Positions 3,089-43,477 of a stretch of 64,000 bases of DNA are shown piece after piece (position 1 is the stretch's first letter; every line of letters begins with the position of its first letter). This stretch comes from Streptomyces sp. NBC_00483 (GTDB lineage Bacteria > Actinomycetota > Actinomycetes > Streptomycetales > Streptomycetaceae): contig NZ_CP107880.1 in assembly GCF_036013745.1 (NCBI RefSeq), positions 9,052,001 to 9,116,000 on the forward strand, in the 5' to 3' direction. The notes under the pieces are model-generated. The model was not told the DNA's origin and did not search any database. It was given only the letters and a program-made list of their open reading frames with translations. Position numbers and translations under genes: made by a program.

Positions 3089-3104
3089 CTGAGCTTTTAC
3101 TCAG
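3089..3104. promoter_or_regulatory. Candidate TetR operator
   Basis: CTGAG (3089-3093), six bases CTTTTA, CTCAG (3100-3104): an inverted repeat in the gap between the divergent TetR gene and the reductase fusion. On the minus strand it reads TGAGTAAAAGCTCA, a shape common for TetR-family sites. It sits about 50 bases before the GTG start of the fusion, where a repressor could block a promoter. Confidence 0.5.
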
Positions 3105-3157
3105 AATACTGTCATGACCTGCGTGAATACCCGAAACCCCGATACGGGGGATGGCAC

Positions 3158-5356
3158 GTGAACCCCAAGCAGCACGCGTCCCCGCCGGACCTGCCCGACC
3201 CGCCCCACCGGCTCACCACCGTCGAGGAGCTGGAGTCGACCATCGGCCGGCCGGCCGCGATGATCACCCGCAAGCAGGTCCGCGCGCTGGACGAGGGCAG
3301 TCGCGCGGTGCTGGCCCGCTGCCCGGTCGCCGCCTTCGGCTACCGCGATGCCTCGGGCGCCGCGCGGACCACGTTCGTCGGCGGTGCGCCCGGCTTCGCA
3401 CACGTCCACTCCCCGACGGAGATCTCCTTCGCCGTGCCAGGACCGGAGGTCGCCCGTGGCCCGGTCTCGGCGTTCTTTCTGCTGCCGGGCGTGGGTGAGG
3501 TGTTGCGCGTCAACGGCACAGCGGCAGGCCGCCGAGGCGGAGAGGTGTTCGTGGAGGTCGCCGAGGCGTACGTGCACTGCGCGCAGGCCGTCATCCGCTC
3601 ACGTCTGTGGGAGGCCCCCGCCGCGGCTGCGACAACCGAACCGGTCGCGGGCGAGGGCCCGTTGGCCGGGCCCGGGGTGGCCGACTTCCTGGCCGCCGCG
3701 CCCTTCCTGGCCCTGTCCAGCTGGGACACCGACGGCGGCAGTGACACCAGCCCGCGCGGCGAGCGGCAGCCGGTGGCCCGCATCCTGGACGGTCGTAGGC
3801 TCGTCATCGCCGACCGCAGGGGCAACAAGCGCGCCGACACCCTGCACAACCTGCTCCAGGACGACCGGCTCTCCCTCGCGGCCCTCGTGCCCGGCCGCAG
3901 CGGCGTGCTGCATGTCCGCGGGCGCGGCGCGATCACCGACGACCTTGCGCTGCGGGAGACGATGGCGCTGCGGGGCGTACCCCCTCACCTGGCCCTCGTC
4001 ATCGACGTGGAGCACGCCGAGGTGACCGGCAACGCCGCCGTGGCGGATGCTCGACTGTGGGACCCGGGCCGGGCGGAGAGCGGCGAGGCGCCCGACATGA
4101 TGGCCCTCGGCAGCGCGCACCTTGCCGCCAACTCGGCTGAATCCGGGCGAGGTTCGGCATGGTTGATCAAGGCCTTCGCCGCGATCCCGGGAGTGTCCCG
4201 GCTGATGCGCAAGGTGATGGACCGCGGCTACCGCTTCGCCCTGCAAAAGGAGGGCTACGAGGAAGTGCGGATTCCTGCCGGCACCCGTACCGGTGAGCCG
4301 GCGCGGCCGAGCGAGGCGGACGGTGCGCTGCGGCAGGTGCGCGTGGCCGAGGTGCGGCAGGAGACACCGACGGCCCGCACCCTCGTCCTGCGGGACGCAT
4401 CCGAGGAGGAGAGGCCCTTCGACTTCCGGCCCGGGCAGTTCTTCACCCTGATCGTGGACGTCGCCGGCCACCCGGTACGACGCGCCTACTCGGCGTCGTC
4501 CGCCCCCGGCGCCACGCACCTCGACGTCACCGTCAAGCAGGTGGACGGCGGGCACTTCTCCACCCACGTCCACCGCGACCTGCGCGTGGGGGACCGCCTC
4601 GCCGTGCGCGGGCCGTCCGGCACCTTCCACACCCGGGACGAGCCGCAACGGCACCTCGTCCTCATCGCGGCCGGCAGCGGCATCACACCCATGATGAGCA
4701 TGATCCGTTCTCGGCTGGCCGACCCGGCGGGTGACGGCCGCATCGCACTGCTCTACAGCAGCCGCACCCACGAAGAGTTCATCTTCGCCGACGAACTGGC
4801 CCGGCTGGAGAAGGAGCACCCGGAACGCTTCACCGTCACCCACGTCCTGACCCGGCGGGACGGCCGGCTCGATGCCCGAGGGGTGCGGCACTGGGTCACC
4901 ACCGAGGCCGCTCGGGCCCTTCCCGACGGTGCGCACCACTACCTCTGCGGCCCGGAGGCGCTGATGGACACCGTGCAGGGCGTCATGCGTGAACTGGGTG
5001 TCCCGGACGAGCGCGTGCACCAGGAGCGCTTCACCGCTGCCGCGACTCCGGCCGCGGTGGCGGGCCCGCAGCAGATGCGGGTCGAGGAGGGCGGCGCGCC
5101 CGTGGGCGCCACGATCGTCGAGCCGGGCCAGACCCTTCTCGACGCGGGCCTCGCCGCCCGCCTGCCGATGCCGTACTCCTGCACCGTCGGCAACTGCGGA
5201 GACTGTGCGGTGCGGCTACGGGATGGCGACGTCACGCAGGCCGAGCCCAACTGCCTCACGCCCGAGCAGCGGGCCGACGGGTATGTGCTGGCGTGTGTGA
5301 GTTGCCCGCTGTCGAACGTGACTCTCGACATCGGGCCGCAGCCGCCACTCGCCTGA
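3158..5356 (+). CDS. PPOX-like / ferredoxin reductase / 2Fe-2S triple fusion
   Basis: 732 residues from GTG 3158; GGGGGA at 3146-3151 gives a good ribosome site, which is why the much longer open frame upstream is rejected. The N-terminal half has two pyridoxamine-phosphate-oxidase-like (split-barrel, flavin-binding) stretches, the second around ILDGRRLVIADRRGNKRADT. Then comes an FAD/NAD(P)H reductase module with RRAYSASSAPG (FAD), AAGSGITPMMSM (nucleotide) and YLCGPEALM. A C-terminal plant-type ferredoxin has Cys at about 675, 680 and 683 plus a later Cys in VLACVSCP. Electrons would pass from NAD(P)H to FAD to 2Fe-2S and to the split-barrel flavin or a partner oxygenase. It is probably a soluble cytoplasmic enzyme under the divergent TetR regulator. 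The substrate is unknown. Confidence 0.88.
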   Translation: MNPKQHASPPDLPDPPHRLTTVEELESTIGRPAAMITRKQVRALDEGSRAVLARCPVAAFGYRDASGAARTTFVGGAPGFAHVHSPTEISFAVPGPEVARGPVSAFFLLPGVGEVLRVNGTAAGRRGGEVFVEVAEAYVHCAQAVIRSRLWEAPAAAATTEPVAGEGPLAGPGVADFLAAAPFLALSSWDTDGGSDTSPRGERQPVARILDGRRLVIADRRGNKRADTLHNLLQDDRLSLAALVPGRSGVLHVRGRGAITDDLALRETMALRGVPPHLALVIDVEHAEVTGNAAVADARLWDPGRAESGEAPDMMALGSAHLAANSAESGRGSAWLIKAFAAIPGVSRLMRKVMDRGYRFALQKEGYEEVRIPAGTRTGEPARPSEADGALRQVRVAEVRQETPTARTLVLRDASEEERPFDFRPGQFFTLIVDVAGHPVRRAYSASSAPGATHLDVTVKQVDGGHFSTHVHRDLRVGDRLAVRGPSGTFHTRDEPQRHLVLIAAGSGITPMMSMIRSRLADPAGDGRIALLYSSRTHEEFIFADELARLEKEHPERFTVTHVLTRRDGRLDARGVRHWVTTEAARALPDGAHHYLCGPEALMDTVQGVMRELGVPDERVHQERFTAAATPAAVAGPQQMRVEEGGAPVGATIVEPGQTLLDAGLAARLPMPYSCTVGNCGDCAVRLRDGDVTQAEPNCLTPEQRADGYVLACVSCPLSNVTLDIGPQPPLA

Positions 5357-5441
5357 AGCGTCAGCGGCAAGTACCACCGCAGGCCCGGCGGCGAGTACCA
5401 CCGACCGTCGTGCCGATCAACTCCCCGTTCGTGTAACGCCG

Positions 5442-5468
5442 TTGTCCACAGGCGCCGGGTCGTCCACA
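5442..5468. promoter_or_regulatory. Two DnaA-box-like nonamers
   Basis: TTGTCCACA at 5442-5450 and TCGTCCACA at 5460-5468, in the same orientation and 18 bases apart. The first matches the Streptomyces DnaA-box consensus as I remember it. They lie in the 233-base gap between the reductase fusion and the small membrane ORF. That gap also holds a near repeat, GGCRAGTACCACCG, at about 5369 and 5391. A pair this small is not an origin; it could be a DnaA regulatory or titration site, or chance. Confidence 0.35.
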
Positions 5469-5589
5469 GATTGCGGCGGCCCGGCCGTTCGCGGTCTGTG
5501 GCGGGCTAGCTTCATGGGTGTGCGACGGCGAGGTGCCGGAGCGAGGAAGCGGTCGGGGAAGCGGCCAGGCGGATGACGGGGGAGCGGGT

Positions 5590-5706
5590 ATGGGCAGTGG
5601 GCTGCCGGTTGTCGGAGTGAGTGTTCTTGTGTACGCGGTGGTGGGCGCCGTAGTGCTTTTCAGGGCCGCGGTACGGCGGCTCGTTCGGGGGCGTGGACAT
5701 GTATGA
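5590..5706 (+). CDS. Small membrane peptide before the glycosyltransferase
   Basis: 38 residues from ATG 5590, with GGAG at 5581-5584 as ribosome site. One hydrophobic helix (about residues 5-24, VVGVSVLVYAVVGAVVLF) is followed by a basic tail. Its end overlaps the start of the glycosyltransferase in another frame, so the two are translationally coupled or, alternatively, one gene split by a +1 shift near the G5 run at 5687-5691. Processive family-2 glycosyltransferases of the NodC/PgaC kind normally begin with such a helix, and the downstream protein lacks one. Either a genuine tiny partner subunit or the detached N-terminus. Confidence 0.45.
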   Translation: MGSGLPVVGVSVLVYAVVGAVVLFRAAVRRLVRGRGHV

Positions 5707-6760
5707 CGTGACAGTGATCGTGCCCGCGCACAACGAGGAGGCCGGGCTTCCGGCGACCCTGGAGTCGATCGCGGCACAGACCGTGCCGCCGCGCAGGGTG
5801 ATCGTGGTGGACGACGCGTCCGTCGACGCCACCGGCGAGGTCGCGAGACGGTACGGCGCCGAGGTTCTGCGCCCGCGGAGCAACCTCGGCAGCAAGGCGA
5901 AGGCGCAGAACCACGCGCTGCCGCACTGCACTTCGGAGCTCGTCCTCGCGGTGGACGCGGACACGGTGCTCGCGCCCGACTACATCGAGAAGGTCGCGCC
6001 GGTCTTCGCCGACCCGCGCGTGACGATCGCGGCGGGCAATGTGCAGACCCGGTTCGCCCGGACGCTGTGGGAGCGGGGCCGGTCGGTGGAGTATCTGCAC
6101 GGATTCCACTGGCAGCGGCCGATCCAGGCGGGCGCGGGCAGCCCGATGGTGTGCTCGGGGTGCTGCTCGATGTTCCGACGCAGCGCCCTTGGGAAGCACG
6201 GGTTCCCCGAGCGGACCATCGTGGAGGACATGGACTTCACGTGGTCCGAGCAGATCGCGGGGCGGCGCGCGGTGTACGTGGGCGAAGCGGTGGCATGGGC
6301 GGCCGACCCGGAGAGCCTGCTGTATCTGCGCAAGCAGGTGTGGAGGTGGATGGCGGGCTTCTGTCAGAACGTCCGGCTGCACGCAGGGCAGTTGGCGCTG
6401 CGCAAGCCGATGCTCGCGCTGTGGGTGGTCCTCGCGCTGATGGAGATTCTCCTCGCCCCGCTGTGGTGGGGCGCGCCCCTGGTGCTCACCTTCGGGTTCG
6501 GACGACCTGCCGTGGAGACGTTCGGCTGGTGGCTCGGGTCCGAACTCGCACTGACCCTTCCGCCGTTGATCTATGCGTCGCGCCGACGGCGGGTGCCGTT
6601 GAGATCGGTGCTGGTGAATCTCCTGTGTGTGTATCCGACCAAGCTCGTCAATGTCGTCTACGCCTGGAAGGCGGTCGTGGTGGAGCTGGTCCTGGTGCCG
6701 CTGGGCCGGTCGAAAGGCCTGGTCGTGTACGAGAAGGGGCGGGCGCCGACGGCCATATGA
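5699..6760 (+). CDS. Processive-type family 2 glycosyltransferase
   Basis: About 353 residues from ATG 5699 (GTG 5693 is an alternative). GT2 fold: VTVIVPAHNEEAG at the N-terminus, VVDDAS, the metal/UDP motif in LAVDADTVLA, the catalytic ED in IVEDMDFTW, and QVWRW, which fits the QxxRW motif of processive polymer synthases (NodC, hyaluronan and PgaC/IcaA types). The C-terminal third is membrane-spanning (helices around ALWVVLALMEILLAPLWW and LTLPPLIYA). The product is probably an extracellular or capsular polysaccharide; sugar and linkage cannot be read. No N-terminal helix is encoded in this frame; see the small ORF just upstream. Confidence 0.85.
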   Translation: MYDVTVIVPAHNEEAGLPATLESIAAQTVPPRRVIVVDDASVDATGEVARRYGAEVLRPRSNLGSKAKAQNHALPHCTSELVLAVDADTVLAPDYIEKVAPVFADPRVTIAAGNVQTRFARTLWERGRSVEYLHGFHWQRPIQAGAGSPMVCSGCCSMFRRSALGKHGFPERTIVEDMDFTWSEQIAGRRAVYVGEAVAWAADPESLLYLRKQVWRWMAGFCQNVRLHAGQLALRKPMLALWVVLALMEILLAPLWWGAPLVLTFGFGRPAVETFGWWLGSELALTLPPLIYASRRRRVPLRSVLVNLLCVYPTKLVNVVYAWKAVVVELVLVPLGRSKGLVVYEKGRAPTAI

Positions 6761-6964
6761 GCCCGGGGCGCGGAAATCCGCCCGAATGCCGCCAACTCGC
6801 CCGCGAGGCGACGCGATTCAAGATCCTGGACGGCTTCACTCGAACGTGTGGTGGGAGGTAGGGTCGCAAGCGGCAGGTGGGCTTCCGCGCCTTCCCTCCT
6901 ACCCCCGACCCGTCCCCTCCTCGCAGTCGGCCCCCACGCCCTGTTCTCCTCGAGGTCCGCATAC

Positions 6965-8482
6965 ATGATTGAGATACCCGAGCTGGCCGCGGGTGCCCTG
7001 GCCGCCGGGACCGTGTCGGCGTTCGTGCTCGGCGGCGGCTTGCTGAAGGCCCGTCAACACAGCGGCAGGCAGCGCGACGAGACAGATTCGCTCCGCTCCC
7101 GCCTCGAAGCCTCCCGCGAGGAGCTGGAGGCCGCCCGCGAGGAACTCGACGATCTCGCCGCGGCGTTCGCCTCCGAGGTCGCCCACCTGTCCGGCACGCG
7201 CATGCCGGCAGCGGCCACCCACACCGCCCACCCGCACTACCAGGTGCCGGGACCCCTGCAGCCCGACCTCGGCGGCAAGGAGCTGGCCGCGGGCCTCGAC
7301 TCCGTGCTCGACGGGCTGCGCACCGCCATCGCCCAGGAGCGCAAGCGGGTCGACGCCGCCGCCCGTGCCGGGATGCGGGGTGCGACGCGCGAGATCCAGG
7401 CGGGCCTGTACCGGCTGCAGGACGTCCTGCGCGGGCTCCAGGAGCGCTACGACGACCCCGAGTTGGCGCAGACGCTGTTCGCGCTCGACCACGAGAACGA
7501 GCAGTCGCTGCGCCGGGCGCAGGTCGCCGCCGTGGTCTGCGGGGCCTGGGTCGGGCTCGCTCGCGGGGAGTCGCACCTGGTGGAGGCCGTTACCGGCGGC
7601 CAGTCGCGGCTCGCCGGGTACGAGCGGGTGGAGATCCACAACCACCTTGAGGACGGCACCGGGCTGATCTCGCACGCCGTCGAGCCGGTCGCCATCATCG
7701 TGGCCGAACTACTCGACAACGCCCTGCGCCACTCCTCGCCCGACACCACCGTGGGCGTGCACCTCGAACGCGTCCACCACGGCGTCAGCGTGACCGTCGA
7801 CGACGCCGGTGTCGGGATGAGCTCCGACGAACGGGCCAATGCCCAGCGGATGGTGGCGGGGGAGGAGCCCATCCTCCTGTCGGAGCTCGGCGATCCGCCG
7901 CGCATGGGGCTCGCCGCGATCGGCCAGCTGACCCGGCAGTTCGACCTGTCCGTAGACCTGTCCTCGCCCTCGCCGTACGGCGGTGTCCGCGCGGTCCTGC
8001 TCGTGCGGGACCACCTCCTGTGCCGGATCGCCCCCGAGGAGCGCAGGCCGGCCGCCGCGGCTCCCCGGTCCACCCGCGACACCACGCGCGACGTCTCCCA
8101 CGACTCCACCCACGCCCTCGCGGCGGACGAGGCGCCGGCGGCATCCGCGTCCGCGCCCGCACAGGCCGCCGCCCCGGCCCCGGCGGCGACACCCGCCCGG
8201 CCGGACACCCCGCTCACTGACGGCGACGAACTGCCCCGGCGCCGCCGGGTCCGCACCGAAGCGAAGCCCGACGCACAGTCCGACGCGCGCCCCGCCCCGT
8301 CGAAGCCACGGCCCGCCGCGCACCGCAGCCCCGAGGAGCAGGCCGCCGCGCTCGGCGCCCTGCAAGCGGCCACCGCCGCGGCGCGGAGCGCCGCACCGGG
8401 GGACGGCGAGGCCGCACAGCAACCGCACGACACCGCGGGCGACCGCCCCGGCACCAGTGAAGGGAACACGCCCGATGAGTAG
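6965..8482 (+). CDS. cvnA: Conservon CvnA: membrane sensor-kinase-like ATPase
   Basis: 505 residues from ATG 6965, with GAGG nine bases upstream. One N-terminal membrane helix (about residues 8-27), a charged coiled-coil region (about 35-65), a middle region, and a GHKL/HATPase domain with N-box ELLDNALRHSS (about 248) and G-boxes DDAGVGMS (about 278) and MGLAAIG (about 314). From about 355 to the end it is a disordered Pro/Ala/Arg-rich tail. First gene of the classic conservon order. CvnA proteins are thought to act with CvnB, CvnC and CvnD as a membrane-associated complex resembling eukaryotic G-protein signalling, affecting development and antibiotic production. The next gene starts within its stop region. 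Confidence 0.93.
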   Translation: MIEIPELAAGALAAGTVSAFVLGGGLLKARQHSGRQRDETDSLRSRLEASREELEAAREELDDLAAAFASEVAHLSGTRMPAAATHTAHPHYQVPGPLQPDLGGKELAAGLDSVLDGLRTAIAQERKRVDAAARAGMRGATREIQAGLYRLQDVLRGLQERYDDPELAQTLFALDHENEQSLRRAQVAAVVCGAWVGLARGESHLVEAVTGGQSRLAGYERVEIHNHLEDGTGLISHAVEPVAIIVAELLDNALRHSSPDTTVGVHLERVHHGVSVTVDDAGVGMSSDERANAQRMVAGEEPILLSELGDPPRMGLAAIGQLTRQFDLSVDLSSPSPYGGVRAVLLVRDHLLCRIAPEERRPAAAAPRSTRDTTRDVSHDSTHALAADEAPAASASAPAQAAAPAPAATPARPDTPLTDGDELPRRRRVRTEAKPDAQSDARPAPSKPRPAAHRSPEEQAAALGALQAATAAARSAAPGDGEAAQQPHDTAGDRPGTSEGNTPDE

Positions 8483-8909
8483 CCGTGACCTCGGCGACAG
8501 CGCTTGGGTCCTCGATCCGATCCTGGAGATCCCGCACGTCCAGGCCGCCGTCCTGCTCACCAGGGACGGCCTGCTCTCCGGACACACCGAGGCGTTGACG
8601 CAGGCTTCCGCGGAGCGCGTCGCCGCCATCACCAGTACCGTGCAGGGCGCCTGTCGCACCGCGGCGGCCGCCTTCGCCGACCAGGAGACCGCGGACGTAC
8701 GCCAGGTGGTCATCGAGTCCGACCACGGCTACATCCTCGTCGCGCCCACCGCGCACGGCACTTGCGTGGCCGCCTTCGGAGACCCCGAGGTACGGCTCGA
8801 TCTGCTCGGCCACCGTGTCCACTCGCAGGTGGCCAGGCTCGGCGAGAAGGCCATGGCGGCCGCGCCCCGCGGGGTCGACGGCGGCATCGCCGGCGGCACT
8901 GGGGAATGA
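8475..8909 (+). CDS. cvnB: Conservon CvnB: roadblock/LC7 protein
   Basis: 144 residues. The start ATG overlaps the end of cvnA by eight bases. The sequence has the roadblock/LC7 pattern: VLDPILEIPHVQAAVLLTRDGLL, then a GYILVAPTAHGTCVAAFGDPE beta-hairpin region (shown here in two parts of one continuous motif around residues 85-110). Roadblock proteins dimerise and in bacteria commonly serve as GTPase-activating or scaffold subunits for MglA-like GTPases, here CvnD. The last four bases, ATGA, are shared with cvnC. Confidence 0.93.
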   Translation: MSSRDLGDSAWVLDPILEIPHVQAAVLLTRDGLLSGHTEALTQASAERVAAITSTVQGACRTAAAAFADQETADVRQVVIESDHGYILVAPTAHGTCVAAFGDPEVRLDLLGHRVHSQVARLGEKAMAAAPRGVDGGIAGGTGE

Positions 8910-9265
8910 CGGGCCGCCGGAGCGGCCGGCCGCTGGTCCCCGCGTACCTCGCCACCGGCGGGGTCGCGCAGCCCAGCCGCAACAGCCTGGAGCGGCTGTC
9001 CGTGCTGACCGGCGTCGGCGCGCCCTGGCCCGCAGGACTGCCCGCCGCGCAGCACGCCCTGCTGCGCACCCTGGACGGCGGCTCGCTCACGGTGGTCGAG
9101 TCCGCCGCCCTGCTCGAACTGCCGGTCTCCGCCGTACGGGTGCTCGCCGCCGCACTGGTCGACCAGGGGCTCGTGGGTGCCCGCCCGCCGGTCCCGCCCG
9201 CCGCGCAGCCCGATCCCGATCTGTTGAAGAGAGTCGCCGATGGCCTCCGCGCCCTCAAGCGCTAA
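8906..9265 (+). CDS. cvnC: Conservon CvnC: DUF742 protein
   Basis: 119 residues, start ATG in an ATGA overlap with cvnB. DUF742 features: RPLVPAYLATGG at the N-terminus (usual form RPYxxTGGR), then a winged-helix-like stretch (ALLELPVSAVRVLAAALVDQGLV) and the end LLKRVADGLRALKR. It is an obligate member of conservons. Its biochemical role is undefined, probably a linker between the sensor and the GTPase. The 3' end overlaps cvnD by 26 bases, so expression is tightly coupled. Confidence 0.93.
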   Translation: MTGRRSGRPLVPAYLATGGVAQPSRNSLERLSVLTGVGAPWPAGLPAAQHALLRTLDGGSLTVVESAALLELPVSAVRVLAAALVDQGLVGARPPVPPAAQPDPDLLKRVADGLRALKR

Positions 9266-9902
9266 GTCCGCGCCGGCAGGCGCCGAGCTTGCGCCGTCAG
9301 ACCCCGCGCCCGCAGGCGCCAAGAGCGCAGTGCATCTCCCGGACACCGCACGGGAGTTGGTGAAGATCCTGGTCACAGGACCCTTCGGGGTGGGCAAGAC
9401 CACCCTGATCGACTCCGTCTCCGAGATCCGCCCGCTGCACACCGAGGAGCAGCTCACCGAGGCGTCGGCCGCGGTCGACGACCTCGCGGGTGTGCGGGAG
9501 AAGACGACCACGACCGTCGCCATCGACTTCGGGCGGATCAGCCTCAAGGGCGGCGCCGTCCTTTACCTGTTCGGCACCCCGGGGCAGGAGCGCTTCCGTG
9601 CGCTGTGGGACGACATCGCGTACGGCGCGCTCGGTGCCCTCGTGCTGGTCGACACCCGCAGGATCGACGAGTCCTTCGAGGTCCTCGGCCTCGTCGAGGA
9701 GTCGGGTCTGCCCTACGCCGTCGCCCTCAACACCTTCCCGGATTCGCGCAGTTACACCGAGGAGCAGCTGCGGCTCTCCCTCGACCTGGACGACGACACC
9801 CCGATGGTGATCTGCGACGCCCGCGACACGTACTCCTCCGTCGACGCCCTGCTCGCCCTCGTGCAGCACCTGATCGACCGCAGCTTCCCGGAGCCCCGAT
9901 GA
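9240..9902 (+). CDS. cvnD: Conservon CvnD: small GTPase
   Basis: 220 residues. An Ala/Pro-rich N-terminal extension of about 38 residues precedes a Ras-like fold: P-loop GPFGVGKTT (about 47), a switch region with TTTTVAIDFG, and GTPGQERFRALW (about 111). The usual NKxD guanine motif is replaced by ALNTFPD, as often happens in this ATP/GTP-binding family. Start ATG 9240 lies inside cvnC; a later start closer to VHLPDTAREL is possible. It should cycle under control of CvnA-C and pass the signal to the downstream P450 proteins or another output. Confidence 0.93.
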   Translation: MASAPSSAKSAPAGAELAPSDPAPAGAKSAVHLPDTARELVKILVTGPFGVGKTTLIDSVSEIRPLHTEEQLTEASAAVDDLAGVREKTTTTVAIDFGRISLKGGAVLYLFGTPGQERFRALWDDIAYGALGALVLVDTRRIDESFEVLGLVEESGLPYAVALNTFPDSRSYTEEQLRLSLDLDDDTPMVICDARDTYSSVDALLALVQHLIDRSFPEPR

Positions 9903-29369: not shown

Positions 29370-29399
29370 TACGACTACGACTACGACTACGACTACGAC
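29370..29399. repeat. (TACGAC)5 hexamer repeat across a stop codon
   Basis: Five perfect TACGAC units, 29370-29399. They start in the 41-base gap after the GH127 stop and run through the stop codon (CTA at 29393-29395 on the plus strand) of the convergent M1 peptidase gene into its last codons. A change in unit number would leave the reading frame and a stop intact. Confidence 0.85.
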
Positions 29400-30850
29400 G
29401 AACTCACCAGCACCGGAACCTCCGGCAGCGCCGTCTCGTGGACCCACGCACGGAACACCTCGTCCACGGGCCGGCGCGCGAACCGCTCCATGTGCGCCGC
29501 GAACATCTCGGTCGTGACGACGCCGTGCCGGTGCAGGTCCGTCCACGCGCGCAGCGCCTGGAAGAACGCCTGGTCGCCGAGTGAGCATCGCAGGGCGTGG
29601 ATCGCCAGGGCGCCGCGCTCGTAGAGGCGGTCGTCGAACATGTGCTTACGGCCGGGGTCGGCCAGGGACAGGTTCTCGGGGAGCTCGGCGAGCAGGCCGT
29701 GGGCCGCGGCGGCGAGGTCCTGGGCGCCGCGGCCGCCCGAGCGTTCGCACCAGAGCCACTCCGCGTACTTGGCGAGACCCTCGTGGAGCCAGATGTGCTG
29801 CCAGTCGGCGACGGTGACGCTGTTGCCGAACCACTGGTGGGCCAGCTCGTGGGCGATGAGCCGCTCCGAACTCCGGGCGCCGTCCACGTGGTTGGTGCCG
29901 AACAGCGACAGGCCCTGCGCCTCCACGGGCACGTCGAGCTCCTCGTCGGCCACCACGACCGCGTACTCGCCGAACGGGTAGGGGCCGAACAGCTCCTGGA
30001 ACAGGGCCATCATCTGCGGCTGGCGCGCGAAGTCGCGGGAGAAGGCGGTGAGCAGATGGGCCGGGAAGTGGCCGGTCTGCGGGACCCCGTCGAGGCCCGG
30101 ATCGCCGAGCAGCGCCGTCTGGAATCTGCCGATGGCCAGGCCGACGAGATAGCTGGAGGTGGGGGCGGCCTGTTCGTACAGCCAGGTCGTGGTCGAGGCC
30201 CTGGTCGTACGCGTGAGGAGGCGGCCGCCGATCACCACCTGGTACGCGGAGGGGGTGGTGAGCGAGATCTGGTACGCGGCCTTGTCGGCGGGGCGGTCGT
30301 TGCACGGGTACCAGGAGGGGGCGCCGACCGGCTGGCTGGCGACGAGCGCGCCGTCGGTCAGCTCCTCCCAACCCAGGCCGCCCCAGGCGCTCTTCACCGG
30401 CTTCGGGTTGCCGGAGTAGTGCACCTCGACGGTGAACGCGGCGCTCGCGGCCAGCGGCTTCGCCGGCCGGATCCGCAGTCGGCCGCCGCGCAGCGTGTAG
30501 TGCGCGGGGCGGCCGTCGACCCGGATCCGGCCGATACGGAAGTCGGCGAAGTTCAGCTGGAATTCATCCAGTTCGGCGCGGCCCGCAATGGCGCTGAGCC
30601 GGGCCGTGCCGGCCAGCCGGTTGGGCTCGGGCCGGTAGTCCAGGTCGAGTTCGTAGCGGTGCACCCGGTAGCGGGGGTCCCCATTGGACGGGAAGTAGGA
30701 GTCAGGCCCGTGGTGCCCGTGGTGCCGGCCGCCGTGGTGCTGACCGTAGTGCTGCCCGTTCACGCCTCGTCCGCTCCCTGTCCCTGTGCCCGTACTCGTC
30801 TTCGTACCCGTACGACATGGCCAACGTGCCTTCAGGGCCCGCCAATTCAC
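29393..30850 (-). CDS. M1 family zinc metallopeptidase
   Basis: About 485 residues from GTG 30850, which overlaps the synthetase stop (GTGA); GTG 30763 is an alternative start just before a His-rich stretch. The catalytic site is HELAHQW (about 332) with the second Glu in LHEGLAKYAEW, a gluzincin HExxH-18-E arrangement. The usual GAMEN exopeptidase motif is replaced by VEAQGLSLFG. No signal peptide. Epsilon-poly-lysine producers are known to have aminopeptidase-type polymer-degrading enzymes; being coupled to a Pls-like synthetase, this is a candidate polymer trimming or self-protection enzyme (inference). Its end lies in a hexamer repeat. Confidence 0.88.
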   Translation of the reverse strand: MNWRALKARWPCRTGTKTSTGTGTGSGRGVNGQHYGQHHGGRHHGHHGPDSYFPSNGDPRYRVHRYELDLDYRPEPNRLAGTARLSAIAGRAELDEFQLNFADFRIGRIRVDGRPAHYTLRGGRLRIRPAKPLAASAAFTVEVHYSGNPKPVKSAWGGLGWEELTDGALVASQPVGAPSWYPCNDRPADKAAYQISLTTPSAYQVVIGGRLLTRTTRASTTTWLYEQAAPTSSYLVGLAIGRFQTALLGDPGLDGVPQTGHFPAHLLTAFSRDFARQPQMMALFQELFGPYPFGEYAVVVADEELDVPVEAQGLSLFGTNHVDGARSSERLIAHELAHQWFGNSVTVADWQHIWLHEGLAKYAEWLWCERSGGRGAQDLAAAAHGLLAELPENLSLADPGRKHMFDDRLYERGALAIHALRCSLGDQAFFQALRAWTDLHRHGVVTTEMFAAHMERFARRPVDEVFRAWVHETALPEVPVLVSSS

Positions 30851-33800
30851 GGGCGCCAGGCCTCTATCGGGTTGCCGAGCCACCGGCTGCCCGGCGGCAC
30901 CGACTCGCCGGCCATCACCAGGGACGCGGGCCCCAGCGTGCTGCGGGCACCGACCTCGCTGCCCGGCAGCACGATTCCGCCCGGACCCAGCGTGGCGCCC
31001 TCGCGAAGGGTCACAGTATCCGTCCGCAAGATCCGGTCGTGGAAGAGGTGCGTCTGCAGGACACAGCCCCGGTTCACGGTCGCCCCGGCCTCCAGGGTGA
31101 CCAGGTCGGTCTCCGGCAGCCAGTAACTCTCGCACCACACGCCCGCCCCGATGTGCGCGCCGAGGCCGCGCAGCCAGGCGGTGAGGACCGGGGTGCCGGG
31201 CACCGACCCGGCGAGCCACGGCACCGCGAGCATCTCCACGAAGGTGTCGGCCAGTTCGTCCCGCCACACGAAACCGCACCACAGCGGGTGCTCGCTCGCG
31301 CGATGGCGGCCGACCAGCAGCCACTTGGCCACGATCGACACCGCGCACGCGAGGACACCCGCGGCCAGCAGAACAGGGCCGCTGACGAGCGCGGCCGCCC
31401 ACAGGCCGTGCCTCGCCGCGATGGCGGCCAGCGCGCCGAGGACCAGGACGATCAGGGCGGCCGAGCAGAACACCGGGACGAGGCGGCCCAGTTCGACCAG
31501 GGCGCGCGCCCAGCGCAGCCGGACCGGCGGTGTGTAGGTGCGGGCCGGATCGACGCCGGTGGCCGGGCGGGGCAGCCGGACCGGCGGCAGACCCAGGTAC
31601 GAACTGCCCTGCTTGGCCTTCTTCGGGGTGGCCGACAGGACGCCGACCAGGCCGTCGTCCGGCACCGAGCGGCCGGGCGCCGTCATGCCCGAGTTGCCGA
31701 GGAACGCCCGGCGGCCGATCCGGGCGCGCCCGATCCGCACCCAGCCGCCCCCGAGTTCGTACGGCGCGGTCAGCGTGTCGTCGGCGAGGAACGCGCCGTC
31801 GCCGACCGTGGTGAGGCCGGGCAGCGCGAGCACCGTGGACACCTCGGCGTCCCGGCCGACGCGCATGCCGAGCAGCCGCATCCACACCGGCGTGACGAGC
31901 CCCGCGTACAGGGGGAACAACGTCTGCCGGGACAGGTCCATCAGCTGGGTCACGGTCCAGGACTGCCAGCCCGCCCGGCTGTGCACCGGGAACGTTCCGG
32001 AGGTCAGGCCGAGCCCGGCGAGCCGCACACCGGCCAGGATCAGCACGGCGTACGTGAGTCCGTAGGCGAGGGCTGCGGGGGCGGCGGCGAGGAGCCCGTC
32101 GCGCAGCGCATCGCCGAGCCCGGCGCCCGCGGGCACGAAGGCGCGCGCGACGAGCAGGGCCGGGAGGGCGGACAGGAGCGGGAGGAGAGTGAGGGCGAGG
32201 CCCGCGGCGCCGTACATCGCGCGCCAGCCCACCGTGCGCGGCGGCCGCTGCGCGGGCCACTCCCGCTTGGCCTTGCCGAGCTTGACCGCCGGGGAGCCCG
32301 CCCAGCGCTGGCCGGTCGGTACGTGTCCCTGGACGGCGGAGCCCGGTGCGATCTCGGCGCGCTTGCCCACCCGGGCCCCCGGGAAGAGGACGCTCCGCGT
32401 GCCGACCACGGCGCCCGCGCCGACCTTCACGGCGCCGATCTCCAGGCGGTCGCCGTCGAGCCAGTGCCCCGACAGGTCGACCTCGCTCTCGACGGCGCAG
32501 CCGCGGCCGAGCTTGAGCAGGCCGGTGACCGGCGGCAGCGAGTGCAGGTCGACGTCGGGGCCGACCCTGGCGCCGAGCGCGCGGGCGTAACGCTGCAGCC
32601 AGGAACCGGTCAGCGAGGTCGCGCCGCTGTGCTCGGCGAGCCGCTCGGCGGTCCACAGCCGCAGATGGACGCCACCGCCTCTCGGATACGTCCCCGGGCC
32701 GACGCCGCGCAGCAGCAGCCGGGCGCCGCCCACCGCCACGGCGAGCCGGCCCGGCGGACTGAACAGGACCAGCGCCGCGGGCGCGAGCAGCCACCAGGAG
32801 GCGGATGGGGCCCACGCGTAGCCGCCGAACCGGTGCAGGACGTCGGCCAGCGCGGCGAGCGCGATCGTCCAGCGCAGGCCGTTGAGGGTGAACAGCGGTA
32901 TCAGGAGCAGCAGTTGGACGAGTTTGGCGCGGTTCGGGACCGGGGCGATCGTCCGCTCCGCGCCGTCGTCCTGCGCCGACTTCTCCAGGCGGCGGGCCAG
33001 CTTACGGAGGACTGGACGCTCGTAGAGGTCGATGACGGCCGCGTCCGGGTAGCGGGTGCGCAGTCGGGTGGTCAGCTGGGCGGCGGCGAGGCTGCCGCCT
33101 CCGATGGTGAAGAAGTTGTCGTGCGCGTCGGTGACGGGGACGCCGAGGGTCTCGCTCCACTGCTCGGCGAGCCAGGCCTCGGTGCCGTAGAGCTGCTCGG
33201 CCGGGGCGTCGGTCGCCACGTCGGGCAGCGGCCACGGCAGCGCGTCGCGGTCGACCTTGCCGGAGGTGCGCGTGGGCAGTTCGGCGACGGGAGCGAGCAA
33301 CGGCACGAGCGCGGCGGGCAGTTCGGAGCGCAGCTTGTCCACGGCGGCCGCGTGCTGCCAGCCCTCCTGGGTGACGATGTAGCCGACGAGCAGCTGGTTG
33401 CCGCCGCGCGCGGTGCGGACGGCGCAGGCCGCACCCGCGACGCCGGGCAGCGCCTGCAGCGCGGAGTCGACCTCGCCGAGCTCGATGCGCCGCCCGCCGA
33501 GCTTGATCTGCTCGTCGCCGCGCCCAAGGAAGACCAGGCCCTCGGGGTCGGCCTTGACCAGGTCGCCGCTGCGGTAGGCGCGCTCCCAGCCGAGGGCGGG
33601 CAGCGGCGGATACTTCTCGGCGTCCTTGACCGGGTCGAGATAGCGGGCCAACCCCACGCCACCGATGACGAGTTGTCCGCTGGCGCCCATCGGGACGGGC
33701 CGGTCGGCCTCGTCGACGACGGCGAGTTCCCAGCCGTCCAGCGGCAGTCCGATGCGGATCGGCTCGGCGCCGGTCATCAGGGAGGCGCAGGTGACGACGG

Positions 33801-34737
33801 TGGCCTCGGTGGGCCCGTACGTGTTCCAGACCTCGCGGCCCTCGGTGACCAGGCGCTGGACGAGCTCGGGCGGACACGCCTCGCCGCCGAAGATCAGCAG
33901 CCGGACGTCGTTGAGGGCCTCCGGCTCCCAGAGCGCGGCCAGCGTCGGCACGGTGGAGATGACGGTGATCTCCTGCTCGGCCAGCCAGGGCCCGAGGTCG
34001 GCGCCGCCACGCACCTGGGCGCGCGGCACCGGCACCAGGCAGGCGCCGTGCCGCCACGCCAGCCACATCTCCTCGCAGGACGCGTCGAACGCGACGGACA
34101 GGCCCGCCATGACCCGGTCGCCGGGCCCGATCGGATCCTCGGCGAGGAAGAGCGCGGCCTCCGCGTCCACGAACGCCGCGGCGCTGCGGTTACGGACGGC
34201 GACGCCCTTGGGCCGCCCGGTCGAACCGGACGTGAAGATGATCCACGCGTCGTCCCCGGGCCCGGGCCGCCCGGCGGGAACGGGGGAGGACTCCGCGACG
34301 GTGAAGGCGTGCCCCGCCCCGATCACGGTCCGCACCCCCGCCTCACCGAAGACGAGTTCGGCCCGCTCGTCCGGATCCTCGGCATCCACGGGTACGTACG
34401 CGGCGCCCGCCGCGAGCACGGCGAGAATCGCCACGTACAGGTCGTTCGTCCCCGACGGCACCCGCACGCCGACCCGGTCGCCGCGCCCCACCCCGGCCCC
34501 GGCCAGACGGCTGCGCAGCCGGCCGACCTCAACGTCCAGCGCGCGGTACGTCAGTCGGCGCAGGCCGTCGTCGAGGGCGAGCTCGTCGGGGTGCTTTCGG
34601 ACGGTCGCGTCGAGGATGTCGACCAGGGTGCGCGGTGCGGCGGCGTCCTTCGCGAAGAAGTGCGCCGGAGCGTCGAGCCGTTCGGTCAGCTCCGCTTCGA
34701 GCAGGCTGAGCTCGTCGTGTGCGCGAGTGGCGTCCAT
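30847..34737 (-). CDS. Pls/PosA-type membrane NRPS (poly-amino-acid synthetase)
   Basis: 1296 residues from ATG 34737; epsilon-poly-lysine synthetase Pls is about 1320. Adenylation domain (about 30-500): IIFTSGSTGRPKG (about 165), FDASCEEMW, NTYGPTEAT, YRSGDLVKA, TSGKVDRDAL. Thiolation domain: DNFFTIGGGSL, Ser near 548. Then three pairs of membrane helices (about 606-670, 820-900, 1060-1125) alternate with three C-like domains full of hexapeptide (left-handed helix) repeats. No TE or ordinary condensation domain. This is the Pls architecture, in which tandem C-like domains join free and carrier-bound amino acids into an isopeptide chain at the membrane. The binding pocket read by hand suggests lysine or another diamino acid. 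Upstream 34738-34943 should hold the promoter; the M1 peptidase gene is coupled downstream. Confidence 0.92.
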   Translation of the reverse strand: MDATRAHDELSLLEAELTERLDAPAHFFAKDAAAPRTLVDILDATVRKHPDELALDDGLRRLTYRALDVEVGRLRSRLAGAGVGRGDRVGVRVPSGTNDLYVAILAVLAAGAAYVPVDAEDPDERAELVFGEAGVRTVIGAGHAFTVAESSPVPAGRPGPGDDAWIIFTSGSTGRPKGVAVRNRSAAAFVDAEAALFLAEDPIGPGDRVMAGLSVAFDASCEEMWLAWRHGACLVPVPRAQVRGGADLGPWLAEQEITVISTVPTLAALWEPEALNDVRLLIFGGEACPPELVQRLVTEGREVWNTYGPTEATVVTCASLMTGAEPIRIGLPLDGWELAVVDEADRPVPMGASGQLVIGGVGLARYLDPVKDAEKYPPLPALGWERAYRSGDLVKADPEGLVFLGRGDEQIKLGGRRIELGEVDSALQALPGVAGAACAVRTARGGNQLLVGYIVTQEGWQHAAAVDKLRSELPAALVPLLAPVAELPTRTSGKVDRDALPWPLPDVATDAPAEQLYGTEAWLAEQWSETLGVPVTDAHDNFFTIGGGSLAAAQLTTRLRTRYPDAAVIDLYERPVLRKLARRLEKSAQDDGAERTIAPVPNRAKLVQLLLLIPLFTLNGLRWTIALAALADVLHRFGGYAWAPSASWWLLAPAALVLFSPPGRLAVAVGGARLLLRGVGPGTYPRGGGVHLRLWTAERLAEHSGATSLTGSWLQRYARALGARVGPDVDLHSLPPVTGLLKLGRGCAVESEVDLSGHWLDGDRLEIGAVKVGAGAVVGTRSVLFPGARVGKRAEIAPGSAVQGHVPTGQRWAGSPAVKLGKAKREWPAQRPPRTVGWRAMYGAAGLALTLLPLLSALPALLVARAFVPAGAGLGDALRDGLLAAAPAALAYGLTYAVLILAGVRLAGLGLTSGTFPVHSRAGWQSWTVTQLMDLSRQTLFPLYAGLVTPVWMRLLGMRVGRDAEVSTVLALPGLTTVGDGAFLADDTLTAPYELGGGWVRIGRARIGRRAFLGNSGMTAPGRSVPDDGLVGVLSATPKKAKQGSSYLGLPPVRLPRPATGVDPARTYTPPVRLRWARALVELGRLVPVFCSAALIVLVLGALAAIAARHGLWAAALVSGPVLLAAGVLACAVSIVAKWLLVGRHRASEHPLWCGFVWRDELADTFVEMLAVPWLAGSVPGTPVLTAWLRGLGAHIGAGVWCESYWLPETDLVTLEAGATVNRGCVLQTHLFHDRILRTDTVTLREGATLGPGGIVLPGSEVGARSTLGPASLVMAGESVPPGSRWLGNPIEAWRP

Positions 34738-39561: not shown

Positions 39562-40767
39562 ATGAGTATCGTCCCGCCACCCGCCCGATTCCTACCCCGC
39601 GGTGCCGAGTCCTGGCGCGACCCCTACGCGATGTACGCGGCCCTGCGCGACCACGATCCGCTGCACCACGTCGAGGGCGGCGACCACTGGGTGCTCTCCC
39701 GCTACGACGACGTCCTGGACGCGCTGCGCCACCCCGAGCTGTTCTCGTCACGCCAGGGTCTGACGGTGGTCCGCGACGACATGGCCGCGGCCGGTGTGGA
39801 GGCCGCGCCGCCGCTGGTCATGCTCGACCCGCCGGAGCACACGGAGTTCCGCGGGCTGCTCACCAAGGGGTTCACTCCTCGCCGCGTGGAATCCGTGGCG
39901 GACGCGATACGCGACTTCGTACGCACCCGGCTCGACGCGATCGCGGAGATGACCGCAGCGGGCGAACCGGTCGACATCGTCGCCGAACTGGTGCGGCCGC
40001 TCCCGTGTTTCGTCGTCGCCCACTACCTGGGGGTCGACGAAGCCGACCGGCAGCGTTTCGCGGGCTGGACACAGTCGATCGTGCAGGCGGGCGCCCAGGG
40101 CCACGCGCTCGACGCGCGCGAGGCGGTCGCCGACCTCTTCGCGTACTTCGCGGAACTGATCGAGCGGCGCCGCGCACACCCGGCCGACGACACCGTCTCC
40201 GACCTCGTCCGCGTCCTGGCCGACGATCCGCAGGCCGCGATCCGGATCCTGGGATTCGCCTTCACCATGATCGCCGGCGGCAACGACACGACCATCGGCC
40301 TGCTCACCACCGTATCGCAACTCCTCACCGAACAGCCAGAGTTACGAGCCCGTTTCGCATCCGACCCGGAGTCGGCCGGGCCCTTCGTCGAGGAGGCGCT
40401 GCGCCTGGCGTCGCCGGTGCAGGGCCTGGCCCGCACCCTCACCGAAGACCTGAGCCTGCACGGCAGGACCGCGCCGGCCGGGGACAAGGTGCTGCTGCTC
40501 TACGGCTCCGCCAACCGCGACCCGCGCGCCTTCGGCCCCCATGCCGACGAGGTCGACCTGGAGCGCACGACGCCACAACACCTGGCCTTCGGCTACGGCC
40601 CGCACCACTGCCTGGGCGCCGCGGCGGCCCGCCTCCAGGGACGGATCGCGCTCACCGAACTCCTCGCCCGTTTTCCGCACTTCACGGTCGACGCGCCCCG
40701 CGGTACGTTCGCGGACGGCTGCTACGTGCGCCGGTACGAGACGCTGCCGTTCGCGGCCGGTGGGTGA
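39562..40767 (+). CDS. Cytochrome P450 of a ketone-degradation operon
   Basis: 401 residues. I-helix AGGNDTT (about 235), K-helix EALR (about 275), haem loop FGYGPHHCLG (Cys about 348): fully canonical class I P450. It is first in a rightward set with an HSL-type esterase and a Baeyer-Villiger monooxygenase. By analogy to terpene and cyclic-alkane pathways it would hydroxylate a ring carbon which, after oxidation to a ketone, is handled by the BVMO and esterase. No ferredoxin or alcohol dehydrogenase gene is adjacent. Confidence 0.9.
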   Translation: MSIVPPPARFLPRGAESWRDPYAMYAALRDHDPLHHVEGGDHWVLSRYDDVLDALRHPELFSSRQGLTVVRDDMAAAGVEAAPPLVMLDPPEHTEFRGLLTKGFTPRRVESVADAIRDFVRTRLDAIAEMTAAGEPVDIVAELVRPLPCFVVAHYLGVDEADRQRFAGWTQSIVQAGAQGHALDAREAVADLFAYFAELIERRRAHPADDTVSDLVRVLADDPQAAIRILGFAFTMIAGGNDTTIGLLTTVSQLLTEQPELRARFASDPESAGPFVEEALRLASPVQGLARTLTEDLSLHGRTAPAGDKVLLLYGSANRDPRAFGPHADEVDLERTTPQHLAFGYGPHHCLGAAAARLQGRIALTELLARFPHFTVDAPRGTFADGCYVRRYETLPFAAGG

Positions 40768-40936
40768 GCCGAGGACCCGTTGCGCGAGCCGGCCTCCGCC
40801 GAGGTCTGGACCTCGCGAGGATCTCCGGCGAGCATGGTCCGTGCACGGTACAGCGGCCGGTGCGCGGGGCCGGGCCCGCCTGCCGTACGAGCATCACCTC
40901 CGAGAAGACGAGCAGGATCGACGAGGGGACGGCCGT

Positions 40937-41881
40937 ATGCCACTGGAACCGGTGACCCAGGCGTTTCTGGCGGAACTGGCCAAGGCCGACGGCCCGGCGA
41001 TGCACGAGTCCACGCCGGCCATCGCCCGTCTGCACGCCCCCATCCTCTCCGGTATCAGCGGCCGGGGCCCGGAGGTCGGCGCGGTACGGGACGTCAAGAT
41101 CGAGGGCCGCGACGGCGGGCGATTCCGCACCAGGGTGCTGCGTCCCGAGGGCACCCCGCAGGCGGTCGTCGTGTACTTCCACGGCGGCGGCTGGGTCGTC
41201 GGGGACATCGACCTGCAGTACGACCACGTGGGCCGCCGGCTCTCGAACGCGACGCAGTCGACCGTGGTGATGGTCAACTACCGCAAGGCGCCCGAGCATC
41301 CGTTCCCGACAGCCATCGAGGACAGCTGGGCCGCCCTGACCTGGACCGCCGAGCACGGGGACGAACTCGCCCCGCAAGGCGCCCCGTTGCTCGTCGCCGG
41401 CGACAGCGCGGGCGGCAATATCGCAGCGGTGATGACCCGCTGGGCCCGCGACCGCGGCGGGCCCGCCGTCGACTACCAGGCCCTGATCTATCCCGTCACC
41501 GACTGCGACCTGGACCGGCCCTCGTACCTCGCCCCGCAGAACCAACTCATGCTCACCCGCGACACCATGGCCTGGTTCTGGGACCACTACCTCCCCGACG
41601 AGCGGGCCCGCACGCACCCGGACGCCTCCCCGCTGCGCGCCGACAGCCTCGCGGGCCTGCCCCCGGCGCTCGTGTACGTCGCCGAGTGCGATCCGCTGCA
41701 CGACGAGGGAGTCGCCTACGCGCACGCGCTGCGCGAGGCGGGCGTCCCGGTGGCACTTGAAGAGGCCGCGGGCCAGATGCACGCCTTCTTCCAGATGGCG
41801 GGCATCCTGCCGGGCTTCGAGGACGGGCTGCGTCTTGTGGCGGAGCACATCAACAAGTTCGTCGCCGAAAGGACGGTGTGA
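40937..41881 (+). CDS. HSL-family alpha/beta hydrolase
   Basis: 314 residues from ATG 40937, with AGGGG at 40924-40928. Hormone-sensitive-lipase family signature: oxyanion motif HGGGW (about 80) and nucleophile elbow GDSAGG (about 156); Asp and His expected near DPLHDEG (about 255) and GQMHAF (about 283). Three bases before the BVMO start. Its likely role is hydrolysis of the ester or lactone made by that enzyme. Confidence 0.9.
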   Translation: MPLEPVTQAFLAELAKADGPAMHESTPAIARLHAPILSGISGRGPEVGAVRDVKIEGRDGGRFRTRVLRPEGTPQAVVVYFHGGGWVVGDIDLQYDHVGRRLSNATQSTVVMVNYRKAPEHPFPTAIEDSWAALTWTAEHGDELAPQGAPLLVAGDSAGGNIAAVMTRWARDRGGPAVDYQALIYPVTDCDLDRPSYLAPQNQLMLTRDTMAWFWDHYLPDERARTHPDASPLRADSLAGLPPALVYVAECDPLHDEGVAYAHALREAGVPVALEEAAGQMHAFFQMAGILPGFEDGLRLVAEHINKFVAERTV

Positions 41882-41884
41882 GCC

Positions 41885-43477
41885 ATGGCCGACCACGACG
41901 TGCTCGTCATCGGCGCCGGTTTCGCCGGCCTCTACCAGCTGCACCGGCTGCGCGCGCTCGGCTTCGACACCTGCGTGATCGAGGCAGGCGCGGACGTCGG
42001 CGGCACCTGGTACTGGAACCGCTACCCGGGCGCCCGCTGCGACATCGAGTCCGTCGAGTACTCCTACTCCTTCGACTCCGAGCTCGAGCAGGAATGGGAC
42101 TGGAGCGAGCGCTACGCGGCCCAGCCGGAGATCCTCGCCTACGTACGCCATGTGGCCGACCGGTTCGACCTGCGCAGGGACGTCGTCTTCAACACCCGTG
42201 TGGAATCGCTCGATTGGGACGACGCGGCGGAGCGCTGGACGGTCCGGGCCTCCGACGGAACACCCCGCACCGCCCGGTACGTCATCGCGGCCACCGGGTG
42301 CCTGTCCATGCCGTCCCGGCCCGACTTCGAGGGCCTCACGGACTTCGCGGGGGAGGTGCTGTGGACGTCCAACTGGCCGCACGAGGACGCCGACCTGGCC
42401 GGCAAGCGGGTGGCCGTGATCGGCACCGGATCCTCCGGACTGCAGACGATCACCGCGATCGCCCCGCTGGTGGGCTCGCTCACCGTCTTCCAGCGCACCC
42501 CGTCCTACGCGGTGCCCGCCCACAACGGCCCCAACGCCTCCCGTCTCGCCGCGGCGCGGGCGCGCTACCCCGAACGACGCGAGGTCTCCCGCGCCTCATC
42601 GAAGGGCTTCGACTGCGACGAAGAGGCGCAGGTGCTCGTTGTCGAGACCGAAGAGGAGGAAATCGTAAGGGAGTTGGACCGGCGCTGGGACATCGGTGGT
42701 CTGTGCTTCGGCAGCGGCTTCAGTGACCTGCTCAGGGACGCGGAGGCCAACGAGGCCGTCGCCGAGTACGTCCGCGCACGGATCCGCGAGAAGGTGAAGA
42801 GCCCCGAACTCGCCGAGCGGCTCACCCCGCGCACGTACCCGATCGCCAGCAAGCGGATGTGCGTCGACACCGGCTACTTCGAGGTGTTCAACCAGGACAA
42901 CGTCACCCTGGTCGACCTCGTCGAGCGGCCGATCGACCGGATGACCGAGCGCGGGATCCGCACCGAGGACGGGGGCGCGTACGACGTCGACGTCATCGTC
43001 ATGGCGACCGGATTCGACGCGATGACCGGCGCCCTGAACGCCATCGACATCAGGGGCGCCGACGGCCTCGCGCTGCGCGAAAAGTGGGCGCACGGCCCGC
43101 GTACGTATCTGGGCCTGATGTCGGCCGGCTTCCCCAACCTCTTCACGGTGACCGGCCCCCAGAGCCCGTCCGTCCTCTCCAACATGATGACCTCGATCGA
43201 GCACCACGTGGACTGGATCACCCGCGCCCTCACGCACCTGCGCGAGCGCGGACTGCACCGCATGGAGGCCGACCCGAACGCCGAGGACAACTGGGTCAAC
43301 ACCACCAACGACCTCGCCGACCTCACGCTCATGCCCCAGGCCGCGTCCTGGTACATGGGCGCCAACATCCCCGGGAAACAACGGGTGTTCATGCCCTTCA
43401 TCGGCGGCGTCGGCCTCTACCGCGACCTCACCGACGGCATCGCGGTGAGCCACTACCACGGCTTCGAACTGAGCTGA
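41885..43477 (+). CDS. Baeyer-Villiger-type flavin monooxygenase
   Basis: 530 residues. FAD motif GAGFAGLY at the N-terminus, GGTWYWNRYPGARCD (strongly typical of BVMOs), NADPH motif GTGSSG, and the fingerprint region at residues 154-165. That region reads FAGEVLWTSNWP, while the rule is FxGxxxHxxxWP: the His is Trp at residue 160. The DNA there (TGG at 42362-42364) is unambiguous in this sequence. The enzyme would insert oxygen next to a ketone carbonyl to give an ester or lactone. It ends 22 bases from the convergent TerD gene. Confidence 0.9.
   Translation: MADHDVLVIGAGFAGLYQLHRLRALGFDTCVIEAGADVGGTWYWNRYPGARCDIESVEYSYSFDSELEQEWDWSERYAAQPEILAYVRHVADRFDLRRDVVFNTRVESLDWDDAAERWTVRASDGTPRTARYVIAATGCLSMPSRPDFEGLTDFAGEVLWTSNWPHEDADLAGKRVAVIGTGSSGLQTITAIAPLVGSLTVFQRTPSYAVPAHNGPNASRLAAARARYPERREVSRASSKGFDCDEEAQVLVVETEEEEIVRELDRRWDIGGLCFGSGFSDLLRDAEANEAVAEYVRARIREKVKSPELAERLTPRTYPIASKRMCVDTGYFEVFNQDNVTLVDLVERPIDRMTERGIRTEDGGAYDVDVIVMATGFDAMTGALNAIDIRGADGLALREKWAHGPRTYLGLMSAGFPNLFTVTGPQSPSVLSNMMTSIEHHVDWITRALTHLRERGLHRMEADPNAEDNWVNTTNDLADLTLMPQAASWYMGANIPGKQRVFMPFIGGVGLYRDLTDGIAVSHYHGFELS

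Follow-up and report, generated by a model that had tools for sequence, protein, structure and literature searches.

A predicted epsilon-poly-L-lysine synthetase gene in Streptomyces is paired with an M1 peptidase gene whose product lacks a signal-like N-terminus

Epsilon-poly-L-lysine (epsilon-PL) is an antimicrobial food preservative from Streptomyces albulus. Here, we analysed a stretch of 64,000 nucleotides from Streptomyces sp. NBC_00483 (contig NZ_CP107880.1, positions 9052001-9116000 of a 10.2-Mb genome in one contig), which we call the window and which carries on its minus strand a pls-type gene followed by the gene for a zinc M1 peptidase. We consider it probable that the two genes form an epsilon-PL unit with a cytoplasmic, polymer-degrading peptidase. 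The synthetase has the architecture of Pls and a substrate pocket identical to that of an S. albulus-type enzyme, and the peptidase occupies the position of S. albulus PldII and has no signal-like N-terminus. The pairing itself is known; what would set the window locus apart is the location of its peptidase.

Results

The pls frame is intact and encodes 1296 amino acids and a stop (Table 1). Pfam places an AMP-binding domain at residues 43-365 and a PP-binding domain at 522-584, and adenylation motifs A3, A5, A7, A8 and A10 as well as the carrier motif IGGGS are all present. The initial annotation of this locus had staked its reading on Pls similarity in a profile search, and that similarity was found: the NCBIfam model of the Pls/PosA C-terminal part, TIGR02353, matches residues 607-1291 at 819.8 bits against a cut-off of 423.1. 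As had also been claimed, the four families found by the Pfam scan include no thioesterase, and no ordinary condensation domain is among them. The top match of the synthetase in the PDB is 7WEW, the adenylation (A) domain of epsilon-PL synthase (1.9e-192). A protein search returned 7968 matches among 7995 scored candidates; the 120 that were listed cover 98-100% of the query at 79-93% identity, and those with a name come from Streptomyces. Comparison with three relatives gave ratios of nonsynonymous to synonymous substitution of 0.23-0.27 for pls and 0.21-0.24 for the M1 gene, indicating purifying selection on both. Because of these relatives and low ratios, we exclude that either frame arose by chance.

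In the hydropathy profile, with two overlapping windows taken as one segment, six segments form three pairs in the C-terminal part of the synthetase and one more lies within the A domain. An AlphaFold2 model of residues 590-1296 (mean predicted local distance difference test score 91.6) likewise has three pairs of helices, with a beta-helix after each pair. The complete Pls layout of adenylation, thiolation, three membrane-helix pairs and three tandem domains is therefore borne out. These tandem domains had been described as C-like; their number stands, but profile and fold matches assign them to hexapeptide acetyltransferases of the left-handed beta-helix type, which rules out condensation domains of non-ribosomal peptide synthetases. 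The published C-terminal model of PosA is also a single domain of beta-helices (PMC10522769). The sequence QTHLFHDR (residues 1228-1235, third tandem domain) is invariant across 68 aligned sequences and may be the catalytic site.

We placed the ten pocket positions of the A domain by motif, in GrsA numbering. They read DAESIGTVVK, identical to the pocket of an S. albulus-type enzyme (locus L006); the A domain of L006 and the letters of 7WEW are 92% identical. All 120 listed close relatives share this code. Of 76 loci, 75 have it as well and one (L043) reads DAESIGTVIK; the 76 are what remained of 80 loci after four cut or frame-broken ones were set aside, and the 80 had been retrieved with six peptide patterns taken from 7WEW, including two that each contain one pocket residue. 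As a control we read the pockets of L135-L137, remote TIGR02353 proteins (30-33% identical) encoded in other Streptomyces genomes; they are DFEYFGTVTK, DFECLSVVTK and DFECLSVVTK. According to PMC10522769, pocket position 2 is Ala in lysine enzymes, Met in the ornithine enzyme PosA and Phe in the diaminopropionate and diaminobutyrate enzymes. Since the window pocket equals that of the S. albulus-type enzyme, the distant members are of the DF type and position 2 follows this rule, L-lysine is strongly indicated as the predicted substrate of the window synthetase. This contradicts the earlier view that the exact polymer could not be predicted from the architecture; the broader claim, that the gene encodes a membrane enzyme making a cationic isopeptide homopolymer, we rate as supported at the level of predicted function.

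Membership of the window enzyme among the epsilon-PL synthetases is well supported by predicted pocket and layout, as distinct from nesting in a tree or activity. The same pocket argument has been used on coryneform proteins, whose genes are reported to lie in an operon with a peptidase gene and whose pockets are reported to be identical or highly similar to those of confirmed Pls enzymes, and Pls of Corynebacterium variabile (WP_041630296), 51% identical to that of S. albulus, makes epsilon-PL in S. coelicolor (PMC8117764). PosA, the delta-poly-L-ornithine synthetase of Acinetobacter, belongs to the same family and shares the conserved pocket Asp and Glu, but differs at position 2 and is described as a single-gene operon without a peptidase (PMC10522769). 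The poly-diaminopropionate and poly-diaminobutyrate synthetases share TIGR02353 with the window enzyme and differ in the Phe at position 2 (PMC10522769). That the window product is some other cationic homopolymer (poly-ornithine, poly-beta-lysine or poly-diaminobutyrate) or a mixed polymer seems to us quite improbable. The family does make several polymers (PMC10522769), and in the pls tree the window clade stands apart from the S. albulus-side enzymes, but the pocket agrees with the lysine enzyme at all ten positions and no precursor-making gene recurs beside pls and M1, the two genes that recur in all 12 regions compared.

We surveyed 150 Streptomyces genomes, including that of the window, and called a pls gene window-type at 78% identity or more. 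All counts from this survey are among the matches listed, with at most 4 and 10 candidates scored per genome in two tables. A window-type pls is found in 48 of the 150 genomes (partial in G014, on two contigs in G139 and interrupted in G140), and in 48 of 48, our own included, an M1 gene lies next to it on the same strand. The initial annotation had suggested that the pairing might define a new family member; this recurrence, together with the published pls-pldII pair, removes its novelty. Ten other pls matches at 54-67% identity comprise eight with an M1 gene and two without (G048 and G121), and none of three matches at 32-37% has one beside it. Among the 80 loci fetched by similarity to 7WEW, 69 contain an M1 gene, including all 60 that the pls tree places on the window side. 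Of the other 11, four end within 757 bases, and the remaining seven (L012, L015, L016, L022, L035, L043 and L076), all on the S. albulus/Kitasatospora side, have no M1 gene across 2.4-7.6 kb. No M1 gene was present in the flanks of 420, 3383 and 3477 bases examined beside the three DF-type genes.

These seven loci, which come from Kitasatospora, S. rimosus, Kocuria and Streptomyces sp. MJM8645, and G048 combine a lysine-type pocket (one residue off in L043) with the absence of a nearby M1 gene. In G140 (G140:C1:8264171-8267984) and in L027, where the M1 gene lies about 2 kb from a broken pls, the synthetase frame is apparently split and the adjoining M1 match is free of inner stops.

The gene downstream of pls encodes a zinc M1 peptidase, as initially proposed: Pfam reports Peptidase_M1 at 8.7e-28, and both the HELAH-18-E zinc site and the YERG tyrosine are present. 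Its start had been placed at the GTG of a GTGA overlapping the pls stop, which would have yielded synthetase and peptidase in fixed proportion. The GTGA letters do stand at 30850-30847, but their use as a start is not borne out. Of 20 window-clade relatives, none has an M1-frame start codon at -4 or -1; this GTG is not conserved, and the claim of fixed proportion is not supported. All 20 have an ATG or GTG 22-138 nucleotides downstream of the pls stop, preceded in 16 by the exact sequence CAGGGAGC and in two more by a near form of it. The nearest annotated M1 relative (92% identity, 457 amino acids) starts MNGQHYGQHHGG, which corresponds to the residues after GTG 30763 and not to those after GTG 30850. 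Homology read from GTG 30850 begins only at residue 38-49 in 38 of 47 other window-type loci; the nine remaining loci match further upstream, and three of them (G134, G083 and G042) hold a stop within the match. Two observations count against the downstream start: 9 of the 20 relatives also hold an in-frame ATG or GTG at -13 (13 nucleotides before the end of the pls stop), and that codon serves as the annotated start in at least 4 of the 120 nearest M1 proteins. The -13 codon is absent from the window, and the other 11 relatives are without any overlapping start. By conservation, then, the gene likely spans 29393-30763 and encodes 456 amino acids.

In the 83-nucleotide gap that would separate the two genes we found no terminator-like site and no RNA fold better than those of shuffled sequences. 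Judged from the spacing and the lack of such a site, pls and the M1 gene probably form one transcription unit, with the peptidase probably translated from a ribosome site of its own on the common transcript. The M1 gene overlaps the pls stop by 1 or 4 nucleotides at 42 of the 61 other window-side loci and at 7 of 9 S. albulus-side loci; such overlaps are common in the family, though not in the window clade. The N-terminus encoded at 30710-30763 is rich in histidine and glycine (NGQHYGQHHGGRHHGHHG), a feature partly common with the 92% relative (P0123) and unlike P0124-P0128.

We next compared M1 N-termini by taking, ahead of the M1 core, the maximum of the mean hydropathy over 15 residues. Values were called signal-like above a threshold of 1.3, which was set after the values were known and falls between the lowest on the S. 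albulus side (1.36) and the highest on the window side (1.08). The pls tree decided the side to which a peptidase belongs, except for L027, L121 and L122, which were placed by the M1 tree. Three loci at contig ends, with neither a tree position nor an M1 gene, were assigned to the S. albulus side and lie outside these counts. A signal-like N-terminus is found in all nine pls-linked S. albulus-side peptidases (1.36-2.47; for example CSRRALIRGAALVPLAAAA) and in 12 of 12 unlinked Streptomyces M1 paralogues (at least 1.78 from some candidate start; for L125 from an upstream start only). By the same measure none was seen in the 20 window-clade peptidases (10 too short to contain one), the 61 others of the window side (15 too short) or the 120 nearest M1 proteins as annotated. 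The window peptidase therefore most likely remains in the cytoplasm.

In the pls tree (95 rows, the C. variabile enzyme not among them), the window clade and the S. albulus/Kitasatospora enzymes fall on opposite sides of one branch. An entry from S. venezuelae (P0106) belongs to the window clade, and PMC12466573 lists a non-alpha poly-amino-acid region, possibly the same gene, in S. venezuelae NRRL B-65442. In the unrooted M1 tree (97 rows, two skipped), a 100/100 branch separates the 12 unlinked paralogues from the rest and another branch sets the S. albulus side apart, mirroring the pls tree. If all pls-linked M1 peptidases are of one origin, the simplest history would be that the export signal was lost once, on the branch leading to the window side; separate recruitment of the window-side and S. 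albulus-side peptidases is also possible.

Table 1. Positions in the window of the synthetase gene, the peptidase gene and their parts
Feature	Position	Strand	Basis
pls-type gene, predicted epsilon-poly-L-lysine synthetase (Pls/PosA family)	30847..34737	minus	open reading frame, profile and pocket matches
Adenylation domain, residues 19-506	33220..34683	minus	best PDB match 7WEW
Pocket stretch, nine of ten residues (218, 219, 222, 261, 282, 284, 306, 314, 315)	33793..34086	minus	motif mapping
Tenth pocket residue, K494	33256-33258	minus	completes code DAESIGTVVK
Carrier (thiolation) domain, residues 522-584, IGGGS motif	32986..33174	minus	Pfam, motif
C-terminal membrane polymerisation region (TIGR02353), residues 607-1291	30865..32919	minus	profile, hydropathy, model
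C1, left-handed beta-helix acetyltransferase fold, residues about 674-828	32254..32718	minus	profile, fold match
C2, profile homologue of C1 and C3, residues about 914-1055, without a PDB row of its own	31573..31998	minus	
C3, beta-helix, residues about 1145-1296	30850..31305	minus	profile, fold match
GTGA, initially annotated M1 start; not conserved, probably unused	30847..30850	minus	
Gap from pls stop to likely M1 start, 83 nucleotides	30764..30846	minus	
Shine-Dalgarno region ACAGGGAGCGGACG ahead of GTG 30763	30768..30781	minus	
M1 zinc peptidase, 456 amino acids, PldII counterpart by position, without signal-like N-terminus	29393..30763	minus	conserved GTG start
Zinc site HELAH-18-E of the M1 peptidase	29780..29851	minus	motif

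Discussion

We envision a scenario in which the synthetase adenylates L-lysine and then loads it onto its own carrier domain, after which the three membrane-seated beta-helices of acetyltransferase fold would join the lysine carboxylate to the next epsilon-amine, repeatedly. The synthetase itself would set the chain length. The M1 peptidase would then act within the cell and degrade polymer that is yet to be exported or never is, either as self-protection or to recycle lysine. The earlier suggestion that the peptidase may cut the polymer is in keeping with this scenario, and we regard it as supported in the sense of a prediction.

The closest described system is that of S. albulus, in which pldII is reported to be translationally coupled to the adjacent pls, its product to lie outside the membrane, and its repression to lower epsilon-PL tolerance and shift chain length (PMC9223678). 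The window locus resembles it in domain layout, in the ten pocket residues (by way of L006) and in a peptidase gene directly downstream, of the M1 type in L006 and its kin. It differs in that the S. albulus-side M1 genes mostly overlap pls and all encode signal-like N-termini, whereas the window gene most likely starts beyond the pls stop and encodes none. Because its peptidase appears to lack an export signal, the published model of an exported peptidase cannot be transferred to the window unchanged; by its predicted N-terminus the protein falls outside a strict definition of PldII and is a variant in the PldII position.

Several observations weigh against our reading. In the comparison with S. 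albulus-type Pls that had been proposed as a check, the pocket is identical; across the aligned protein the window clade and L006 are 57% identical, and the branch that parts the clade from the S. albulus/Kitasatospora side has a support of 100 in the Shimodaira-Hasegawa-like approximate likelihood ratio test. The pocket code common to the 80 loci is partly by construction, given the two retrieval patterns that hold pocket residues. G048 (L138) has a lysine pocket and no M1 gene within 2.9 kb downstream, and G121 (L139), at 54% identity, has none within 3.6 kb. The signal-like call is based on hydropathy with a threshold chosen after the fact, and non-classical export of the peptidase is possible. 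In the midpoint drawing of the unrooted M1 tree, the S. albulus-side peptidases fall together with the unlinked paralogues (99/98) and not with the window side. Finally, according to a review, inactivation of Pld and PldII left yield and chain length unaltered (PMC8506220).

The last two points bear on an alternative that we think unlikely, in which the M1 protein is a general aminopeptidase in the operon, inert on the polymer or recruited separately from S. albulus pldII. Its closest solved relative, the bacterial M1 metalloprotease 6A8Z, would fit such a role. However, an M1 gene follows window-type pls in every listed case and at all 60 window-side loci, the placement of the 12 unlinked paralogues beyond a 100/100 branch allows a single origin of the pls-linked peptidases if the root lies there, and the S. 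albulus counterpart is reported to be the major epsilon-PL-degrading enzyme (PMC9223678).

A somewhat stronger rival, though still a doubtful one, is that the locus is mostly silent or its product is destroyed in the cell and never released, the real output being an intracellular short oligomer or lysine store. The lack of a signal-like N-terminus on the peptidase and the presence of window-type pls in nearly a third of the sampled genomes are consistent with this idea, as is the report of no detectable epsilon-PL in C. variabile culture (PMC8117764). Purifying selection on pls and M1 speaks against it only in so far as it shows that both genes are used.

Beyond the two-gene unit that we favour for the window, we tentatively raise a wider idea, to which we give less than even weight: most actinobacterial epsilon-PL loci, the window locus among them, may be of a second type, in which a coupled cytoplasmic peptidase gates release by destroying the polymer before export. 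To our knowledge, few Streptomyces are known as producers. If true, this idea would explain why many carry an intact, selected pls and yet few produce the polymer, and deletion of the peptidase would switch production on. If a lysine-type synthetase and an unexported peptidase occur together in about one third of Streptomyces species, as in the 48 of 150 genomes sampled, what limits production in those strains may be intracellular degradation and not missing genes. External self-protection, the accepted role of PldII, would then be confined to one side of the family.

Neighbouring genes and a second locus

A larger conserved cluster around pls and M1 is ruled out, as the neighbours do not recur. 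The GMC oxidoreductase, GH127 and GH125 genes near the window pair lie beside none of 13 other pls loci, and one 34% match to a cytochrome P450 of the window occurs in L112. In an all-against-all comparison of 12 regions, in which several groups were other frames of pls or M1, these two genes were the only ones common to all 12; sets of three or four regions have further neighbours in common among themselves. On the plus strand of the window, genes for a cytochrome P450, an alpha/beta hydrolase and a protein resembling flavin monooxygenases follow one another at 39562-43477; they might form a small operon with a catabolic or tailoring role.

The same genome contains a second, split TIGR02353 locus (L110; G000:C1:7277000-7293000, 2213-9783, minus strand). 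It encodes an 809-amino-acid carrier-plus-membrane protein (763.2 bits) without an A domain and, adjoining it, a separate adenylation-thiolation protein with the pocket DIWQSTADDK. Also beside it are genes for a TauD oxygenase, a protein similar to ornithine cyclodeaminase and a pyridoxal phosphate enzyme, an arrangement that resembles a diaminopropionate supply of the SbnA/SbnB type.

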